Source: Phragmitibacter flavus (GTDB lineage Bacteria > Verrucomicrobiota > Verrucomicrobiia > Verrucomicrobiales > Verrucomicrobiaceae). From it: 64,000 bases of DNA. The notes below the pieces were generated by a model. The model was not told the DNA's origin. It ran no database searches and was given only the letters and a program-made list of their open reading frames with translations. The DNA is taken from the NCBI RefSeq assembly GCF_005780165.1, contig NZ_VAUV01000003.1, positions 1-64,000 on the forward strand, given 5' to 3'. Positions 24,372 to 34,231 of this stretch are shown in pieces (within the stretch, counting starts at the first letter, position 1; every line of letters starts with the position of its first letter). A program made the translations under genes and the position numbers.

Positions 24372-24773
24372 CTAAGCCGCAAAACTTTCCCCACAGGAGC
24401 AGGTCACCACTGCATTCGGATTCTTCACTTTGAATCCGCCGCTCTGCAAATCGTCGCTGTAATCCAGCTCACTGCCGGAAACAAACAACGCACTTTTCGG
24501 ATCAATCACCACCCGCACCTCGGCGGAAACCACCATGATGTCGCGGTTCGCCGGGCCATCCACCAGGTCCATCTTGTATTGCAATCCCGAGCATCCACCA
24601 CCGATCACCTTGATGCGCAATGCCCCATGCTCCGCACGCCCCTGCTTTTTCAAAAGCCCAAGCAGCCGGTTCGAGGCATTCGGCAACACCTTGATCAGCT
24701 TCTCATTGCCAAGCTTGTAGGTCGGTGCGGGGGCCGTGGGTGCAGATTCAGTCACCCCCCAACGTTCGGTCAT
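24372..24773 (-). CDS. A-type iron-sulfur cluster carrier (IscA/ErpA/HesB family)
   Basis: A 133-aa protein carrying the three cysteines of A-type carriers: Cys61 in GGGCSGLQY, and Cys125 and Cys127 in TCSCGESF. The family binds a 2Fe-2S or 4Fe-4S cluster and hands it to target enzymes. The ATG at 24773 is chosen; the frame continues upstream through a heptanucleotide repeat that would code for FLVLGSW copies, which is clearly not coding. An unusual 20-residue Ala/Pro/Thr leader precedes the domain. It is not next to other isc or suf genes. Confidence 0.85.
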   Translation of the reverse strand: MTERWGVTESAPTAPAPTYKLGNEKLIKVLPNASNRLLGLLKKQGRAEHGALRIKVIGGGCSGLQYKMDLVDGPANRDIMVVSAEVRVVIDPKSALFVSGSELDYSDDLQSGGFKVKNPNAVVTCSCGESFAA

Positions 24774-24803
24774 TTCGCCGCGATGCAAGGAGGAATTGCC
24801 CCG

Positions 24804-24879
24804 AAGAACCAAGAACCAAGAACCAAGAACCAAGAACCAAGAACCAAGAACCAAGAACCAAGAACCAAGAACCAAGAAC
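24804..24879. repeat. Heptanucleotide tandem repeat (AAGAACC, about 11 copies)
   Basis: Ten perfect copies of AAGAACC and a partial one, between the start of the Fe-S carrier gene and the end of the helicase gene. Being seven bases long, the unit cycles through all frames and creates a spurious FLVLGSW-repeat ORF on the minus strand. Confidence 0.95.
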
Positions 24880-24885
24880 AAGACC

Positions 24886-26895
24886 TTACCCCCCCTCCAG
24901 CATCTCCTTCCGCAATTTCGCAAAATAATCCAGCGCATCGTCTGGCTCGATCTCCTCCTTCATGAACGCCGCATGGTCAAACTCCTCCAAATAAGTCCGG
25001 TCCAGCTCCTTCAAAAAGCTGCTCGGCATGCACGTCTGCTTTTGACCCCACTTCATCCGATACCGCACGTAACTCAGCGTCAGTCGGCGCTTCGCCCGCG
25101 TGATCCCCACATAAAAAAGCCGCCGCTCCTCGTCCTTGCGATTCTCATCAATCGAACGCTTGTGCGGCAAAATCCCCTCCTCCAGCCCTGGAAGATACAC
25201 CACCGGAAACTCCAGCCCCTTCGCCGCATGCATGGTGATCAAACACACCCCCGTCTTCTTCTCGATGTCATCCTTGTCCTCCCGATCATCATTCAAACTG
25301 ATCTCATCCAAAAACGCCTGCATGCCATCACCCCTCCGACGCGCGTCAAACCCATGCAATGCATCAATCGTCATTTTCATCCCGTTCTCCGCCACCGCCG
25401 AATCATCCGGCTCCTTCGCCCCCTTGCGCAAATGATCCACATAAGCAATCTCATGCAAAAACCGCTCCGCCATCACCCCATACGCCGTTGAATTCGTCCG
25501 CGCCATGTCGCCATACCTATCCATCATCTCAATGAACTCCAGCAACGGCGTCTTCGTTCTTTCCGACAACAGCGCCTGAAACTCCGGATCCTTCATCGCC
25601 ACAAAAACGCTGCACCCATTGTCAATCGAATGCTGCCGCGCCAGCTGCGCCGTGCTGTTGCCAATTCCCCGCGTCGGCGTGTTCAGAATCCGCAGCAGAC
25701 TCGTGTCCTCATCCGGGTTCACCATCACCGTCAAATACGCGATGATGTCCTTCACCTCGCGACGATCAAAAAAGCTGCGCGCGCCAATGATCCGATACGG
25801 AATCTTCCTCTTGCGAAACTCCCCCTCCAGCACCCGGCTTTGTTCATTGGTCCGAAACAGCACCGCCATGTCATCCCATGTATCCCCCTTCTTCGTCTGC
25901 AGCTCAATCATCTCATCCGCAATGATGCGCGCCTCCTCCTTCTCATCCTCCACGATCACCATCCGCACCGGTTCATGCCCCGGATTTTTGCTCCACAAAT
26001 TCTTCCCACGCCGACCCAGGTTGTGTTTGATCAGACTGTTCGCCGTATGCAGAATCGCCGTCGTGCTCCGGTAATTTTCCTCCAGCTTGATCACCGTCGC
26101 CCCCGGGAAAAACGACTCATAATCATTGATGTTCGTGATGTCCGCCCCGCGCCAGCCATAAATGCTCTGGTCATCATCCCCCACCACGCAAATGTTGTGT
26201 GGCGGCCCCACCAGCGCCCGCAACAACCTCATTTGCAGCGTGTTCGTGTCCTGGAACTCATCCACCATCACGAATTTGTATTTTTGCCGCACCTCCTCGC
26301 GCACCTCATCATGCTGCTCCAGCAACTCCACCGCATAAAGCAGCAAATCATCAAAATCCATCGCGTTCAACGACCTCAAATCATCCCCATACTGCTGCAT
26401 CACCGCCGCATCCAGATCCCGCTCCGGATTCCCCAAGGTCGACCCATCATTCTTCGCCTTGCTGATCCGCATCAACGCCATCGACGGATCCAACGTCTCC
26501 TCCTTCGTCAACAACCTCCCTAAAATCTTCTTCACCAGCCCCTGCTGCTCTCCCTGACTGTAGATCACGAAATTCTTTTTATACCCGATCTTCTCCGCAT
26601 AAACCCGCAGCAACCGCATACAAAACGCATGGAAAGTCCCCAGCGTGATGTGTTTGCTCTTCGCCGCCCCCAGCATCTCCCCCACCCGCTCGCGCATCTC
26701 ATTCGCCGCCTTGTTGGTGAACGTCACCGCCAGAATATTCGCAGGAGAAATCCCCTCCTCCACCATGTAGCGAATCCGCATCGTGATCACCCGCGTCTTC
26801 CCCGTCCCCGCCCCCGCCAGGATCAACACCGGACCATGAATCGTCTTCACCGCCTCACGCTGCTGCACATTCAGAAGAGAATAATCAAACGCCAT
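24886..26895 (-). CDS. UvrD/Rep/PcrA-family ATP-dependent DNA helicase
   Basis: A 669-aa superfamily 1A helicase. Walker A GAGTGKT is at 28-34, TFTNKAANEMRERV is motif Ia, DEFQDTN near 220 is motif II, DDDQSIYGWRGA motif III, ENYRST motif IV, TMHAAKGLEFPVVY motif V and VGITRAKRRL motif VI. The layout and wording are closest to E. coli Rep, slightly shorter. It would unwind DNA with 3'-5' polarity in replication restart or repair. It is a single gene; its start at 26895 has no obvious Shine-Dalgarno site. The stop lies seven bases from the heptanucleotide repeat. Confidence 0.93.
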   Translation of the reverse strand: MAFDYSLLNVQQREAVKTIHGPVLILAGAGTGKTRVITMRIRYMVEEGISPANILAVTFTNKAANEMRERVGEMLGAAKSKHITLGTFHAFCMRLLRVYAEKIGYKKNFVIYSQGEQQGLVKKILGRLLTKEETLDPSMALMRISKAKNDGSTLGNPERDLDAAVMQQYGDDLRSLNAMDFDDLLLYAVELLEQHDEVREEVRQKYKFVMVDEFQDTNTLQMRLLRALVGPPHNICVVGDDDQSIYGWRGADITNINDYESFFPGATVIKLEENYRSTTAILHTANSLIKHNLGRRGKNLWSKNPGHEPVRMVIVEDEKEEARIIADEMIELQTKKGDTWDDMAVLFRTNEQSRVLEGEFRKRKIPYRIIGARSFFDRREVKDIIAYLTVMVNPDEDTSLLRILNTPTRGIGNSTAQLARQHSIDNGCSVFVAMKDPEFQALLSERTKTPLLEFIEMMDRYGDMARTNSTAYGVMAERFLHEIAYVDHLRKGAKEPDDSAVAENGMKMTIDALHGFDARRRGDGMQAFLDEISLNDDREDKDDIEKKTGVCLITMHAAKGLEFPVVYLPGLEEGILPHKRSIDENRKDEERRLFYVGITRAKRRLTLSYVRYRMKWGQKQTCMPSSFLKELDRTYLEEFDHAAFMKEEIEPDDALDYFAKLRKEMLEGG

Positions 26896-27148: not shown

Positions 27149-27310
27149 CAGCACCCAACCCATCAACAAATACAATCCACCACCCGCTTGCAACAAACTT
27201 GCCCTTCATTTAGCCACTCGCCAGCATCGCCCGCCTCATCCAACGTTCCGGGCGCACCCCTGCAGGCCCCGCCATGATCTCCGCCTATCAAACCTCGCGC
27301 ATCATCCGCA

Positions 27311-27399
27311 ACATCAGACATCAGACATCAGACATCAGACATCAGACATCAGACATCAGACATCAGACATCAGACATCAGACATCAGACATCAGACATC
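27311..27399. repeat. Heptanucleotide tandem repeat (ACATCAG, 12.7 copies)
   Basis: Twelve exact ACATCAG units and a partial one. Like the AAGAACC array 2.4 kb away, the unit is seven bases long. There are no spacers, so it is not a CRISPR. Confidence 0.95.
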
Positions 27400-27640
27400 G
27401 GGCATCGAACATCGTTTCGAAGACACCACCGTCACTCCCCCTTCCGCGTAGCAGACGCCTCGGTGGAACACGAGTAATGGGTGTTTTTGTGCGGGTGGTA
27501 TTCCTCTCACACAAAAGCACTAGGCCACGAACGACCAAGAGCGATGAAGCGGGGGGCATCCCTGATTACCGGAAGACAAACAGCACCGACAATCCCCGAA
27601 AACCACCTCTCGATTCTCGCGCAAATCTCCATTTTTGAAG

Positions 27641-27712
27641 AATAACACCCGAAAATCCGTGTTATTTGTATGCCAAATCGGATCTACTCTCGAAAAATCT
27701 TCAAATTTGAAG
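27641..27712. promoter_or_regulatory. A+T-rich palindromes before the accessory island
   Basis: AATAACAC (27641-27648) and GTGTTATT (27659-27666) form a perfect 8-bp inverted repeat, and CTTCAAATTTGAAG (27699-27712) is a perfect 14-bp palindrome. Both lie 80-150 bp before the first island gene and look like operator or recombinase sites; which one is unknown. Confidence 0.4.
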
Positions 27713-27793
27713 GATATAGTGTGCTATTAATCTTCAAAACGACGTATTAACCGACTTTTATTTCGCAGGCCATTAATTACTTAGACGATTTTC

Positions 27794-28273
27794 ATGGACG
27801 ACGCAAAACTCATTGCCGCATGGATCGCAGCTGCCGTTGCGATTGCCGGAACATGCTTGACCGTAATCTCGCAATTCGTATTTCGCTTTATGGACAATCG
27901 CGCTAAGCGACGTCACGAATTTATGTCCGCCCGAAGGGACGCTCTGCTGAAAGCGCTCGAGGTGTTGGATCACTGCTATTCCAACATGAGCTTCGATAAA
28001 AAACCGCCGACCAATCCTCACACCTGGGATCTTTCTGAATCACATGCGGCAATGAACGGCATGATCGTCTTCTGTGCGAATCCACAGAAAGCCGTCGACA
28101 CCTTCACGGATGCGCTCGGGCTCAGAGATGGCGATACATTCAATCCGATGGAGAGACTTCACGCATTTCGATGCGTTGTGTGCGATGAACTCGGACTACC
28201 ACGGACGAATTACGATGATCCGAACATCACATGGATTGGCCAACTTGCGGGCACATCCAAAGAGGCGAAATAA
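27794..28273 (+). CDS. Hypothetical membrane-anchored protein (first island gene)
   Basis: A 159-aa protein with one N-terminal membrane helix (LIAAWIAAAVAIAGTCLTVISQFVFRF) and a soluble C-terminal part with no recognised motif (HEFMSARRDALLKALEVLDHCY, NPQKAVDTFTDALGL). The layout is common among small unknown genes on mobile elements. The ATG lies seven bases after TTAGAC (27781-27786), which resembles an integron core-site end, and its stop codon TAA overlaps the left box of an attC-like site. Base composition is more A+T-rich than the flanking chromosome. Function unknown. Confidence 0.65.
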   Translation: MDDAKLIAAWIAAAVAIAGTCLTVISQFVFRFMDNRAKRRHEFMSARRDALLKALEVLDHCYSNMSFDKKPPTNPHTWDLSESHAAMNGMIVFCANPQKAVDTFTDALGLRDGDTFNPMERLHAFRCVVCDELGLPRTNYDDPNITWIGQLAGTSKEAK

Positions 28274-28357
28274 CCAGTCGTTGAACGCGAGCAGGCGTTG
28301 ACGTCGGTCCTGAAAGCAAAGTTGAATGCGCCCGCCGCGTTTACTTTGTCGTTAGAC
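28271..28357 (+). other. Candidate integron attC recombination site
   Basis: The ends are TAAC (28271) and GTTAGAC (28351-28357, fits GTTRRRY). Reading inwards, both arms have a spacer and then AACGCG (28284-28289) paired with CGCGTT (28336-28341), an unpaired A at 28290, then GC and GGCG (28294-28297) paired with CGCC. Equal arm spacing and one extrahelical base are features of attC sites. The left box is only a partial match to RYYYAAC. The next gene starts 9 bp later, as in cassettes. Confidence 0.6.
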
Positions 28358-28366
28358 AAAATCCCG

Positions 28367-28870
28367 ATGATCTCCACGCGAGTTGCCGTTCTGACCGATA
28401 TTCCCGCGCTTGTGGCGATGATGCGTGAGTTTTATGCGGAGTCTAATTATGCGCTCGATGCCCGCTGGGCCGCGGAAGCGTTTTCGGTGGTGTTGCGAGA
28501 TAGCTCCCGTGGGATTGCGTGGATCGTGTCCGAGGGTGAGGAGCCGATGGGTTATGTGGTGGTCACGTTTCGGCTGAGCATGGAATTTGGTGGTTCAGAT
28601 GCGTTCATCGACGACCTCTTCGTGAGCGCGAGGCATCGACGGCGCGGGATAGCCAGGACTGCATTGGAAACGGCGTTCGCTGATTGCCGTCGCCGTGGGG
28701 TGCTGGCGATACATGTGGAGACCGGAGCAGACAGTGTTGCCGCCAAATCGCTCTACCGCAGCTTCGGTCTCGAAGATCGCAAGCGTCTACTTCTGACGAC
28801 GCGACTGACTACGAGGTGCGAATCCTTGCTCAATGAAAAACACCAACAGATAGACAGAGAAAGCAAATAG
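28367..28870 (+). CDS. GNAT-family N-acetyltransferase
   Basis: A 167-aa protein with the GNAT fold: TRVAVLTDIPALVAMMREFY at the N terminus, central strands GYVVVTFR and AFIDDLFVSARHRRRGIARTALE containing the acetyl-CoA pyrophosphate loop (RRRGIA), then AIHVETGADSVAAKSLYRSFGLE. It would transfer an acetyl group from acetyl-CoA to an amine; the substrate is unknown. The ATG at 28367 is preferred to 28298, which lies inside the attC-like site. Acetyltransferases are among the most common integron cassette genes, which fits its location. Confidence 0.85.
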   Translation: MISTRVAVLTDIPALVAMMREFYAESNYALDARWAAEAFSVVLRDSSRGIAWIVSEGEEPMGYVVVTFRLSMEFGGSDAFIDDLFVSARHRRRGIARTALETAFADCRRRGVLAIHVETGADSVAAKSLYRSFGLEDRKRLLLTTRLTTRCESLLNEKHQQIDRESK

Positions 28871-28934
28871 ACAGGCTATTGAACCATACAGAAAAACACG
28901 CAATGGATCGGTCAAATCACCCGTCAGTTCACAG

Positions 28935-29618
28935 ATGAACCTACAAGCCATGCAAGAATGCGATTTTTACCCACCTCCCTACTATGAACGCATTAGAGAG
29001 ATGGGTATGCTCGCCCATCGCCTGCGTCTCTGGGATTTCGACTGGATGGCTGATGAGGACCGTTCGAATTGGCAGTTCCCCGATTTCAGCCGACCTACGT
29101 TGCCTGGTCTGTTTCCATTTGCCCAGGACTACTCGGGCGATCCTTATTGCTGGTTACAAGGCCGTTTAAGCCGATTCGGTGAGCCAGACATCCTTTTGTG
29201 CGACCATGAGGACGGATTTGCTTGGCTTTATGCGCCATCCTTGGCTGGTGCCATTTTTCGCACCGCAACAACTTTTGCCGCAGCAGCGCGAGAGGATTCA
29301 GTTGCGCCCATGGTGGAGATGATTGAGCAGGTGATCGAAGTTTATGGTGAGTTGCTACCTGATGATTGGGTGCAGAGGCTATCTCACTTAACCAAGCGAG
29401 AGCCTAGAATTTTTCGAGGAGCCACAGTCACGAAGGTTGCGCTTCACGCCCCTTGGGATTCTGACGAGGTTATTAAGCAGCTATTCGGGAGTCCATATGC
29501 CGAGAAGAACACACAGTGGGCAAACATTGGTGCCGAACAGGGGGTGGTGGGCAGCGGGCTGGCAGCCGCGCGTGAGACCAAGGACCAACACAGACAGGCT
29601 GATCCACCGCAACCATGA
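28935..29618 (+). CDS. Hypothetical cytoplasmic protein
   Basis: A 227-aa acidic, tryptophan-rich protein (LWDFDWMADEDRSNWQFPDFS, GDPYCWLQGRLSRFGEPDILL) with no signal peptide or membrane helix. The last 30 residues (GVVGSGLAAARETKDQHRQADPPQP) look unlike the rest and may be a read-through end after a truncation. No family recognised; the style is that of immunity or SMI1-like proteins, but I see no defining motif. It overlaps the next gene by four bases (ATGA). Confidence 0.55.
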   Translation: MNLQAMQECDFYPPPYYERIREMGMLAHRLRLWDFDWMADEDRSNWQFPDFSRPTLPGLFPFAQDYSGDPYCWLQGRLSRFGEPDILLCDHEDGFAWLYAPSLAGAIFRTATTFAAAAREDSVAPMVEMIEQVIEVYGELLPDDWVQRLSHLTKREPRIFRGATVTKVALHAPWDSDEVIKQLFGSPYAEKNTQWANIGAEQGVVGSGLAAARETKDQHRQADPPQP

Positions 29619-30097
29619 CTCGCGTCTTTGCCATTCTCTCCGCCATTTTGGGTCTCGTCTATCTGAGCAGCTCGTCCGACTTCTGGCGGCAGCTTCGAAC
29701 GTTTGGTTGGTCGGCGGTTTCGGTGACAGTTATATCGCACACCCTTGAGCCAAGGAGAATGGGATTCTGGGACGCCGGAACTTTCGGTGAAATTCGCTTT
29801 AAAAACTCAGGAGATTCAGAGCGGGTTGATCGCATTTTTCAACGTTTTTCCTTTGATCGATCGACATCCAAGACCGCATCCTACATTGCGAGTCTTGCCC
29901 CAGGAACGACGCACACCGCATTCATTTCTCCCGACGTGTCAGAAGTATCGTTCGGTCGATTCCCATGTTCTTATGGCCCTCGATTTGCACTCGGAGGGTT
30001 GGGATATCTTCTTTTGGCATACTTCGTCTTTCAGCCATGCCCTAGGAGAAGATGTGGCAATCCCAACGAGTCTGAGACCAACGGGCGAACCAATTGA
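29615..30097 (+). CDS. DUF3592-like two-helix membrane protein
   Basis: A 160-aa protein with a hydrophobic N-terminal segment (MTRVFAILSAILGLVYLSS), an extracytoplasmic loop of about 90 residues and a C-terminal helix (FALGGLGYLLLAYFVF) followed by a basic, polar tail. The loop has the GTTHTAFISPDVSEVSF turn seen in DUF3592 proteins. The ATG overlaps the previous stop codon, so translation is coupled. Function unknown. A competing ORF at 29745-30353 in another frame lacks this architecture. Confidence 0.5.
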   Translation: MTRVFAILSAILGLVYLSSSSDFWRQLRTFGWSAVSVTVISHTLEPRRMGFWDAGTFGEIRFKNSGDSERVDRIFQRFSFDRSTSKTASYIASLAPGTTHTAFISPDVSEVSFGRFPCSYGPRFALGGLGYLLLAYFVFQPCPRRRCGNPNESETNGRTN

Positions 30098-30162
30098 ACA
30101 ACCTTTTCGAAGTGACAGACAAGGACACGCCTTGAACATCAATCGCCGCTCACAGGATTTCA

Positions 30163-30405
30163 ATGAATCAGATTGGACTGCACCCTGGCAGCGATTGTCC
30201 TGCCTACCTCTGCTGCGTCAACCACTACGCCGAGATTACGTCCACGGTGGTCCCGAGCAGGCACACCGTTGTTTTTCTCGCGGAAGACGCATCTGGCCGT
30301 TCGACTGCCAGTGCCTTCAAGGATTTGTCATATCTCGCCATTCTGATCGGTGACGTCCAGCGTGAAGCGGGCGAAATCGCCGCCATCATCAGTGATGCCC
30401 ATTAA
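30163..30405 (+). CDS. Small hypothetical protein
   Basis: An 80-aa ORF with two cysteines near the N terminus (CPAYLCC) and an acidic C-terminal half (LIGDVQREAGEIAAIISDAH). An ACAGGA sequence lies before the ATG as a possible ribosome-binding site. No family recognised; the call depends on its position in a run of same-strand island genes. Confidence 0.4.
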   Translation: MNQIGLHPGSDCPAYLCCVNHYAEITSTVVPSRHTVVFLAEDASGRSTASAFKDLSYLAILIGDVQREAGEIAAIISDAH

Positions 30406-30521
30406 GTAAAGCGCAATCAGATAAGTCACGGCAAGAAAGTCTCCGGGCTTTCATGTCGAATCTTTCTTTCAAATGCCTTGTCTTTCATCCAAGTTTGAAA
30501 CTCCTCCGACCCTGACATCTC

Positions 30522-31100
30522 ATGAATGAGTTCCTCCAACCCACAGACATCATCGACAGCACCCATCCGACCATTGTCGCTGCCGCTGTGGAGATCGCTG
30601 GCGACGCCATCGACGATGAGGATGTCGCCAGCCGCTGTTTCATGTGGGTTCGTGATGCCGTGCGCCACAGTTCGGACCATCCAATCGAAATCGTTACCTA
30701 CACGGCGTCCGACGTTCTGAAACATCGCGTTGGATTCTGCTATGCGAAGAGCCATCTGCTCGCCGCATTGCTGCGGGCTCGTAGCATTCCGACCGCTCTT
30801 TGTTATCAGCGGTTGGCCTTTGATGACACCGCCTCCAGCTTCTTTCTGCACGGACTGGTTGCTGTTCATCTCAAGCGTCATGGATGGTATCGGGTTGACC
30901 CACGTGGCAACAAGCCCGGCATCTTTTCCGACTTCACCCCGCCCGTCGAAAGTTTGCCATACTCTCCGACTTTGAAAGGTGAAATGAACGTCCCGGGGAT
31001 ATTCCCAGATGCGATGACTTGTGTGGTGTCAACCCTTCGACAATGGACAACCGCCGCCGACGTTCGTGCGAACCTGCCGGATTTCGCACCAGAGGTTTGA
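30522..31100 (+). CDS. Transglutaminase-like (cysteine-peptidase fold) protein
   Basis: A 192-aa protein with the transglutaminase-like triad in order: Cys in RVGFCYAKSHLLAALLRA, His in FFLHGLVAVHL and Asp in GWYRVDPRGNK. It has no signal peptide and is short, corresponding to the core domain only. Members cut or crosslink peptides or act on unknown cytoplasmic substrates. It is the last gene of the island; an attC-like site starts 104 bp after its stop codon. Confidence 0.8.
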   Translation: MNEFLQPTDIIDSTHPTIVAAAVEIAGDAIDDEDVASRCFMWVRDAVRHSSDHPIEIVTYTASDVLKHRVGFCYAKSHLLAALLRARSIPTALCYQRLAFDDTASSFFLHGLVAVHLKRHGWYRVDPRGNKPGIFSDFTPPVESLPYSPTLKGEMNVPGIFPDAMTCVVSTLRQWTTAADVRANLPDFAPEV

Positions 31101-31203
31101 CCATCAAAATTGGCTTCGATTGTTGAAAGATTCGCGTCTCGCTGACGGTCAACCTTACCGCCCCAGTCAAGGCACCCTCAAACAAGCCCATCCAATCCTG
31201 CTT

Positions 31204-31256
31204 ATCTAACATACGTTGAACCCGTTGAGTTCCGAGTCATTGAAGTTCCGTTAGAT
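31204..31256 (+). other. Second candidate attC site
   Basis: ATCTAAC (31204-31210, fits RYYYAAC) and GTTAGAT (31250-31256, fits GTTRRRY) are perfect inverted copies. Five-base spacers on each side lead to TTGAA and its partial complement TTGAA (31240-31244), a weak L-box. The left arm, CGTTGAACCCG, is nearly the same as CGTTGAACGCG in the first site. At 53 bp it is at the short end for attC sites. Confidence 0.45.
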
Positions 31257-31597
31257 TCAATCACCTCACCCCAAACCTTCGCAATCAACCGAGCCGACTG
31301 CGCCAACGACGATGGTGACCGAAATAAGTTGGCGGCTCAAGTTAACTCGATGTTCAAGCGAGTTATCTTTTGTCGAGCTATTAACCTTATTCCAAATTTA
31401 GCTAAACACTCTATTTTGGCGGCATCGTTGGAGATATCAACCACTCCTTCCACTAACTCCGCAATTCTTGTCATGAAACCGCAAACATAGGTAGTCGCCT
31501 TATTTTTTCTAAGATGGAATAATGATCCTATCTATTATCCGCTTCGTGAGCATACTTCGATTTAATTGGCGGCTTATTAACCATTAAATTCGATAAT
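31257..31597. other. A+T-rich intergenic region between the island and the autotransporter
   Basis: Contains an inverted repeat with GCCAAC (31302-31307) and GTTGGC (31328-31333) flanked by GAGCC/GGCTC, which could be a decayed third recombination site, and a strongly A+T-rich stretch (31490-31597) likely to hold the autotransporter promoter. No convincing gene; a 46-codon ORF at 31350-31490 was not accepted. Confidence 0.4.
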
Positions 31598-34231
31598 ATG
31601 ATAACTACACGCTCGGTTAGGCTTGCAGGGTTGCTTCGAGGAATCTTCGGAGCATTGATGACGGGAAGTTTGATGATTGAAGGGGATAATCTTTGCGCGG
31701 CGCCCATCGAGCTGGGATCGGCAACGGACTTTGCGGTGCTTGCCGGTTCAGGCATCACCATATCGGGGGCGATCAACTCGACTGTCATTAATGGGGACAT
31801 TGGCTCGGCGCCCACGTTCTCCATCACTGGCTTGGAAAACGCGGTTTTCGTCACCGGCGTAAATCACGGCGGCAATGCGGTTACCGTATCTGCCAAGGCC
31901 TCCTTGCTTACCGCCTACAACAATGCAGCCGGCCAGACCGCCACCGTTACCTACACGCCGATCACCGACTTGGGAGGGCAGACCTTGTTTGCGGGCGTGC
32001 ACTTTAACTCCAGTTCGTTTGACATCACCGGCATGTTAACGCTCGATGCCCTTGGGGACCCGAACGCGGTATGGATTTTCCAGATGGGATCCACACTCAC
32101 CACCGCTAGCAACAGCCTGGTCAATCTGATCAACGGTGCACTGGCCAGCAATGTCTTCTGGCAGGTGGGCAGCTCGGCCACGCTTGGCTCGGACTCCGAT
32201 TTTGCAGGCAGCATTCTGGCTTTCACCTCCATCACCGTCAACGATGGGGCCTCCGTTCAAGGCAGGTTGCTGGCGCTGAATGGAGCCGTCACTTTGCTGA
32301 ACAATACCATCGTGGTTGTGCGGGCTCCCGCCGTTGTCGACTCCGTCGAATTTGACGGCGGCGGCACGGTCGTGGTCACCGACACTTTGGTGGTGGCGAG
32401 CGGTATCTTTGATGTGGCCAGCGGCACAGGCAACGTCAGTGGCGGCACGGTCATCACACCCGGAGATTTGCATAAGGTGGGTGCAGGGGAACTGGTGACT
32501 GACAGCTTCATTGATGTGGGAGGCACGGCCTATGTTGACGAAGGGGCGCTCTATGTGAATGGAACTCTGAAAGCTTCCGCCGTGAATGTTCTGCCCAACG
32601 CCCTGCTTGGCGGCACCGGTCTAATCATTGGCGATGTGCACAATGCAGGCACCGTGGCCCCTGGTGATCACGGCGTGGGCACCTTCACCATCGATGGCGA
32701 CTACACTCAAACCCCGCAGGGAACCCTGCAGATTGAGATCTCCGGTGATTCCAGTTTCGACCAGCTGATCGTCACGGGAACCGCCTCACTAAGCGGCACA
32801 CTGGATGTGCTCAGCCTCGGAAACTATTCGTTTGAATATGGCCAGCAGTATCCCTTTTTGGTGGCAGGTAATATCATTGGCAGTTTTGATGAGATACTGA
32901 TGCCCAATAGCGATCTGTATCGTGGAAGATTTATCATCGAAGATAACGTCGGTATCTTGTTGGTCGCACCCGCCAGTTACACGCTGGTGGCTGAAACTCC
33001 GAATCAGACTCGCGTAGCCATCGCGCTGGATGAATGGATCGGAGTCGAAGACGGAGACATTGGCGAGGTCACGCTCGCTCTGGATGTGCTGACGACGGAC
33101 CAATATGAAGCCGCCTTCGAAGCCATCATGCCAAGTTATTATGCCTCCGCGATTTCGACTGGCATTGAACTTAGTCAGACCCAGGGTCAGCTCCTCAGCC
33201 AACAATTGGGATCAAGACGCCTGGGCAATCGTCGCCGCAATCAGGCGCAAAACGAAGCGCCAGCAGAACAGGGCGAGATCGAGCAGGCAGGCGGCAAAGG
33301 CGCCAGATCGGTGCAGCCCTCCGGCGGCAAAAACGCGAGGCGGGTGCAGTATGCGGAACAACCCATCCTTCTAGCACCAGGGCCGCTGGAAGATGAGACC
33401 CGTTGGAACGTCTGGATGCAGGGCACCGGCATGTTCTCCGAAGGGGGCATGAGTCTCACTCCCGGCGAATCGTTTGAGAGTGGCGAATTCATGATTGGTG
33501 CCGACTACGCCCTCTCTCAACATCTTTCCATCGGCCTGTTCACCAGCTATCAGGAAGGTTGGGGCGATTATGACAATGGCGGCAGCATCGATCTGGAAAC
33601 CGTTCGCCTGGGGGCCTATGCCACCGTGGATTTCGAAGGCTTCTACGCCCATGGCGCCGCCGGGTATGGTCAGACCGACTACTCAATCCATCGCCCCATC
33701 CAATGGGCCACGCTGGATCGCACCGCTACCAGCAACCCTGACGGCTCAGAAGTCTTCTTCATGCTTGGCACCGGCTACGACTTCCACGCAGGAAACTTCA
33801 CCTTTGGTCCAGCCGCGAGCATCCAGTATACCCGGCTGAAGCTCAATGGATTCACCGAACGCGGTGCGGACAGCCTCAATCTTCAAGTCGATGACACGAC
33901 CGCAGAAAGTCTGCGCACCTACATCGGCGGAAGAGTCGCCTACGCTTGTGTGATCAATGAGGGGCTCACTCTCGTGCCCGAACTGCGGATGTTCTGGCAA
34001 CATGAATTCATGCAGGGTGGAGACACCATCCACAGCACCTTGGACAGCGGCAACGGACCTGGCTTTGACTATCTCACCGAGGAACAGGGAAGCGATTCCC
34101 TGTATGCCGGAGCCGGCGTCTCCATGCTGCTGGGAAGCAACGTTACCATCAGCCTCTACTACCACGCGAACATCGGCCGCAACGACGATACCCAGCACCT
34201 CGTGACCGCTGGCCTGAACTGGAAGTTCTGA
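31598..34231 (+). CDS. Autotransporter with DUF3494 ice-binding-like domain
   Basis: An 877-aa protein. A signal region (about 1-35) is followed by an ice-binding-protein-like DUF3494 domain (about 38-220: ATDFAVLAGSGITISG, DIGSAPTFSITG, DPNAVWIFQMGSTLTT, SNVFWQVGSSATLG, GSILAFTSITV), a beta-strand repeat passenger (SGGTVITPGDLHKVGAGELVT, GGTGLIIGDVHNAGTVAPG), a Gln/Arg-rich linker (about 525-590) and an autotransporter barrel ending GLNWKF. It should be exported and shown on the cell surface. DUF3494 proteins bind ice or act as adhesins. The fusion with an autotransporter barrel is the notable point; ice binding is not proven. Confidence 0.85.
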   Translation: MITTRSVRLAGLLRGIFGALMTGSLMIEGDNLCAAPIELGSATDFAVLAGSGITISGAINSTVINGDIGSAPTFSITGLENAVFVTGVNHGGNAVTVSAKASLLTAYNNAAGQTATVTYTPITDLGGQTLFAGVHFNSSSFDITGMLTLDALGDPNAVWIFQMGSTLTTASNSLVNLINGALASNVFWQVGSSATLGSDSDFAGSILAFTSITVNDGASVQGRLLALNGAVTLLNNTIVVVRAPAVVDSVEFDGGGTVVVTDTLVVASGIFDVASGTGNVSGGTVITPGDLHKVGAGELVTDSFIDVGGTAYVDEGALYVNGTLKASAVNVLPNALLGGTGLIIGDVHNAGTVAPGDHGVGTFTIDGDYTQTPQGTLQIEISGDSSFDQLIVTGTASLSGTLDVLSLGNYSFEYGQQYPFLVAGNIIGSFDEILMPNSDLYRGRFIIEDNVGILLVAPASYTLVAETPNQTRVAIALDEWIGVEDGDIGEVTLALDVLTTDQYEAAFEAIMPSYYASAISTGIELSQTQGQLLSQQLGSRRLGNRRRNQAQNEAPAEQGEIEQAGGKGARSVQPSGGKNARRVQYAEQPILLAPGPLEDETRWNVWMQGTGMFSEGGMSLTPGESFESGEFMIGADYALSQHLSIGLFTSYQEGWGDYDNGGSIDLETVRLGAYATVDFEGFYAHGAAGYGQTDYSIHRPIQWATLDRTATSNPDGSEVFFMLGTGYDFHAGNFTFGPAASIQYTRLKLNGFTERGADSLNLQVDDTTAESLRTYIGGRVAYACVINEGLTLVPELRMFWQHEFMQGGDTIHSTLDSGNGPGFDYLTEEQGSDSLYAGAGVSMLLGSNVTISLYYHANIGRNDDTQHLVTAGLNWKF

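Follow-up and report, generated by a model that had tools for sequence, protein, structure and literature searches.

A probable decayed integron array headed by an attI-like leader in a genome of Phragmitibacter flavus without a detected integron integrase

Results

Gene content and boundaries of the locus

The analyzed window, the first 64,000 nucleotides of contig NZ_VAUV01000003.1 from Phragmitibacter flavus (assembly GCF_005780165.1), carries six plus-strand ORFs between uvrD and a gene for an ice-binding-like autotransporter (Table 1). Family searches gave nothing above cut-off for genes 1, 4 and 5, and Rfam and tRNA searches of the window returned no matches. An original prediction made from the letters alone had described this region as integron-like cassettes, and its gene placements were correct: TTAGAC (27781-27786) lies 7 bp before the gene 1 ATG at 27794, the GNAT gene starts 9 bp past GTTAGAC, and the gene 1 stop codon falls within an R''-like box, AAATAAC. 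The DNA, described there as richer in A+T, is so by a small margin only (G+C 0.50-0.54). To the left, an ATCAGAC tandem repeat of about 12 units occupies 27310-27400, between uvrD and the stretch that we call leader A. Beside uvrD, the ORF of an Fe-S biosynthesis gene (24372-24938, minus strand) has N-terminal repeats that encode LVLGSWF several times (24800-24880), and its true start may lie further in.

Table 1. Features of the window and of related loci elsewhere in the genome (contigs C1, C4 and C23).
Feature	Position	Strand	Remarks
uvrD	24886-26895	minus	left neighbor of the ORF run
Leader A, attI-like platform copy	27602-27760	plus	1 of 12 in the genome; blastn copies, profile, alignment
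Junction region TTAACCGACTT	27748-27758	plus	G^TT of intact copies reads TTT here (G to T)
Putative scar, about 22 bp	27759-27780	plus	leader end to first cassette-like start; from sequence
Cassette 1, TTAGAC... to G of GTTAGAC	27781-28351	plus	limits from sequence; attC match
Gene 1, 159 aa	27794-28273	plus	
attC site 1, plausibly eroded, 90 nt	28268-28357	plus	profile scan and covariance model
Gene 2, GNAT acetyltransferase	28367-28870	plus	PF00583, E = 7.2e-15
Gene 3, weakly SMI1/KNR4-like	28935-29618	plus	distant relatives behind attC sites
Gene 4, 160 aa	29615-30097	plus	without family match
Small ORF 5, 80 aa	30163-30405	plus	
Gene 6, transglutaminase-like	30522-31100	plus	PF01841; relatives behind attC sites
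Proposed second attC-like site, unsupported	31204-31256	plus	outer boxes alone
Ice-binding-like domain and autotransporter beta-domain fusion	31598-34231		directly right of the region
IS91-family transposase and tyrosine recombinase genes	C23:36834-38910 (L070 11134-13210)		
Leader B copy	C4:255059-255284		
Leader B copy	C1:57956-58118		
Leader B copy	C1:65785-65911		
Leader B copy	C1:73511-73673		

One of two proposed attC sites is supported

Two attC-like sites had been proposed, and the inverted repeat of the first is real. L'' GTTGAACGCG and L' CGCGTTTAC pair except for a single unpaired base, and the spacers measure 5 and 6 nt; the pairing of R'' with R' is imperfect, as expected where R' ends in bases contributed by the next cassette. 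We derived a site profile from 76 attC sites outside the window, and site 1 had the top score of the window (16.2, with a same-strand runner-up of 7.2). In 217 kb of strand sequence drawn from six further loci of this genome, every score stayed below 14, and 1 of 300 shuffles of the 4-kb region reached the score of site 1. A covariance model, for which we used 30 sites from P. flavus and related genomes but again none from the window, also ranked site 1 first, matching its full length at 16.5 bits (runner-up 8.7); the E-value of 0.061 per window is modest by itself and becomes several if scaled to the whole genome. The hairpin was no more stable than shuffled sequence. A strict scan demanding R''/R' pairing did not recover the site, since the R'' and R' bases come from different cassettes. 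Site 1 is plausibly an eroded attC, being ranked first by two models trained without it and lying one cassette length behind the leader described below.

The second proposed site has matching outer boxes but failed the profile, covariance and fold tests. Extending it to a 155-nt attC (31204-31358) was rejected, with a chance-level score of 6.1 and an unremarkable fold. No attC above chance was detected between genes 2 and 6, and in place of the supposed cluster of attC sites the window has a single detectable one. The prediction had itself objected that five ORFs between two sites are too many for one cassette; this objection stands, and we infer that attC sites between genes 2 and 6 have eroded and been lost. 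Taken alone, the E-value of site 1 and the chance-level second site would suit an ordinary small accessory gene cluster with fortuitous attC-like repeats. That reading is very improbable given the leader upstream of the genes, the geometry of its junction, the attC arrays behind sister leaders, and the cassette relatives of genes 3 and 6, all of which are described below.

A leader upstream of the genes is repeated across the genome

The decisive evidence for a cassette reading lies upstream of the region originally described, in a leader at 27602-27760 that had been overlooked. A blastn search with 27600-31560 against 38 related genomes matched only the P. flavus genome itself, where six other places matched the first 150 bp alone. 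Searched by itself, the leader stretch had 11 clear copies in this genome, and a profile built from these (R1) added a distant twelfth at C9:259006; the window copy matched the profile at 129.1 bits (E = 2.7e-37). Leader A copies align over about 160 bp with a mean column identity of 81% and end at ATTAACCCTCTGTT, the intact ends reading AACC(G/C)(A/T)CTGTT or close variants.

Nine copies are intact: their G^TT junction leads straight into a cassette gene, and canonical attC sites follow downstream. The sequences 3' of the GTT are unrelated to one another. A cassette ORF starts there, from a few to some tens of bases on, and R' ends of attC sites such as GTTCGCC, GTTCTGC and GTTAGGC come before it. 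All nine are followed by attC on the same strand (profile score of at least 19), the first one 405-4322 bp downstream; no attC was found near the copies at C7:214k and C9:259k. The window copy reads ACCGACTTTTATTTC, with the G of GTT altered and about 22 bp separating it from TTAGAC. Site 1 lies 507 bp behind this copy and on the correct strand, a position that makes it more credible than its score by itself.

A covariance-model search had been suggested as a check. Across the whole genome it yielded 61 attC matches at E<=10 (about 45 with E below 0.01), lying in arrays on contigs C1, C3, C4, C7, C8, C10, C14, C23 and C31. A textbook array stands behind the leader copy at C8:246k, directly downstream of a long RNA-polymerase-like gene; its attC sites include GGCGAACAAGACGCT...AGCTAGACGTTCGCT. 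An ORF in the C8 array (L067 8555-8899) runs against the array direction and may be an inverted or degenerate cassette.

A second leader family, leader B, heads the C1 and C4 arrays; its four copies are unrelated in sequence to leader A and again show a G^TT junction (CTATCTGTATG^TTCGGCC). Leader B contains direct repeats (CTGCAAAAACGCAGACTAT), and the copy at C1:65785 lacks the segment between them. Two copies sit inside the C1 array region at the heads of sub-arrays. With 12 leader A and four leader B copies, the genome holds about 16 platforms.

Leader A is A+T-rich with short inverted repeats, and we never saw it beside intI. Together with its 12 copies, these properties would suit a dispersed MITE-like or promoter repeat, in place of an attI, whose G^TT acted as an attG-like off-target into which an integrase inserted cassettes; such off-target insertion, and the formation of CALINs (attC clusters without an integron integrase, a term of Cury et al., as cited in PMC8618304) in this way, have been described. 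We regard this origin as improbable: cassettes sit at an identical base in each of the nine intact copies, the unrelated leader B shows the same pattern, and the repeat at array heads in relatives is the attI beside intI itself. A TATA motif lies 42-45 nt before G^TT in leaders A and B and in the type II head found in two relatives (the G103/G085 type). A search for sigma-70-type promoters found no match in the leader, and a LexA link sought for the leader palindromes gave nothing usable. Profile searches of 68 family genomes found no DNA relatives of leader A; one match in G049 (E = 9e-4) was taken as chance.

No integron integrase is detected in the genome

The region had been described as lacking an integrase, with the advice to look for intI elsewhere. 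No protein in the whole genome (99.89% complete, 44 contigs) exceeded the cut-off of the integron integrase family TIGR02249, which was passed in 103 of the 289 genomes of the order. As the assembly is a draft of 44 contigs, an intI could lie in a gap. The best candidate, a tyrosine recombinase at C23:38 kb, reached 163.9 bits (whole protein) against a cut-off of 265; with profile positions 180-227 unmatched and an IS91 neighbor, it was rejected as a divergent IntI. This IS91/recombinase pair is inserted between a leader A cassette and its downstream attC. On the same locus (L070 10686-10847), an inverted repeat of about 52 bp (AAGTTAGCTTTGGTCGCGAAGCGCACCAAAGCTAGCAGTTGTTG) occurs in three tandem copies right behind a cassette gene. 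The TIGR02249 family search found no intI remnant at any leader copy in the genome.

Several relatives of genes 3 and 6 lie behind attC sites

Relatives of gene 6 in G091 (69% identity), G075 (66%) and G031 (50%) each start 10-22 bp behind an attC (E = 8.6e-8, 1.4e-9 and 0.0072, respectively, in 39 kb); at those in G057 (71%) and G099 (63%), these models found no attC. Gene 3 has two distant relatives (31-32%), both behind attC sites (E = 0.0012 and 0.013). We therefore assign genes 3 and 6 to cassette families, represented in other Verrucomicrobiota. Gene 1 had no relatives in the 289 genomes of the order. A comparison of related strains had also been proposed. Verrucomicrobium sp. BvORR034 and BvORR106 keep uvrD and the Fe-S gene together (71%), and genes 1-6 and the flanking ice-binding gene are absent beside uvrD in Verrucomicrobium sp., which provides no exact empty site; the absence of genes 1-6 there fits a variable region.

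Relatives with intI carry additional attI copies

The attC model found arrays in 61 of 68 family genomes, often on several contigs, and 20 array heads were each compared with the intI region of their own genome. In G106, three arrays on other contigs are headed by copies of the intI-side sequence, 98-100% identical over 124, 248 and 411 bp, the identity ending at AACAACG^TTCG. The same core heads four arrays in G083 and two of the compared arrays in G097, in which no intI was found. Array heads of G085 match the attI beside the G103 intI at 86-93% over 200-245 bp. The G106-type core (type I), searched for with a 69-bp query, was found in 41 of 289 genomes. This core lies about 500 bp from intI in G059, G106, G173, G204, G207 and G210, most of which carry further copies elsewhere without intI; at most three candidates were scored per genome, which makes these copy numbers lower limits. 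The type-I core ends in AAACAACGTT, close to the attI1 core published as AAACAAAGTTRRRY (PMC12901181).

Judged by sequence, the repeated array head in these relatives is attI, and leaders A and B are therefore read by analogy as attI copies of this genus, clear sequence likeness between them and the attI heads of relatives being absent. For leader A an attI copy is the most likely identity, and it would have served an integrase that has since been lost. The copies may have arisen by duplication of attI itself or of whole integrons that then lost intI. Alternatively, instead of attI duplicates loaded in trans, the arrays may be integrons of separate origin, gained or broken up by rearrangement, that lost their intI genes independently. 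The G106 copies do share different upstream lengths with the intI side, and intI loss is a proposed route to CALINs (PMC8618304). We nevertheless consider separate integrons less likely, since the three near-identical G106 copies need recent duplication and the P. flavus copies showed no intI remnant in the TIGR02249 search.

Discussion

Integrons are described as a single attI beside a single integrase. In P. flavus, the region from 27602 to about 31.1 kb is likely a decayed integron array that has an attI copy, leader A, at its head and lacks an integrase. The idea of integron-like cassettes lacking an integrase is supported by the leader family, site 1, the negative intI search and the cassette nature of relatives of two genes (3 and 6), though not by a cluster of attC sites in the window. 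With an altered junction, a single weak attC and five further ORFs without recognizable attC, the window platform ranks among the most decayed of the dispersed integrase-less ones.

In our model, the window platform was once loaded, probably in trans. An integron integrase whose gene lay elsewhere, and which is now missing from this genome, would have joined circular attC cassettes to each attI copy at G^TT, the leader providing the site and perhaps also a promoter region for the first cassette. Loss of the integrase would then have frozen the arrays, and subsequent mutation of the window junction and most attC sites would have fixed the genes in place.

Earlier work has described CALINs and their movement in trans, as well as attG insertion at off-target sites and short remnants of attI within arrays. 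The P. flavus arrays resemble CALINs in having attC sites without a nearby intI and small cassette genes, many without a known family; genes 3 and 6 have counterparts beside attC in other genomes. They differ in that repeated attI-like leaders stand at their heads and join the first cassette exactly at G^TT, and the window, with one site, falls short of the two-attC threshold that sister arrays pass. Sedentary chromosomal integrons likewise have an attI-like site, a first cassette at G^TT and attC arrays in one orientation, but here no intI was detected, which also sets the genome apart from a complete integron, and there are about 16 platforms rather than one. Extra attI-derived sites away from the intI-proximal position also occur in the Delta-attI-type cassettes of class 1 and 2 integrons, but these are mostly 14-18 nt remnants in one array (PMC12901181), whereas the long copies here head separate arrays at many places in the chromosome. 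As with attG sites, cassettes occur outside the intI-proximal attI; attG sites, however, are unrelated sequences, and the receiving site here is a homologous repeat. In the open-access literature searched, we found no account of a genome with many dispersed long attI copies at the heads of separate arrays.

More broadly, we tentatively propose, at somewhat less than even confidence, a distributed form of integron in Verrucomicrobiaceae and relatives, in which scattered attI copies, each with its own array, are served by one integrase in trans that can later be lost, with many arrays headed by promoters left behind. If attI copies were duplicated and loaded in trans, one integrase could put genes behind promoters at many chromosomal positions, and CALINs would have a further source besides off-target insertion and intI loss.
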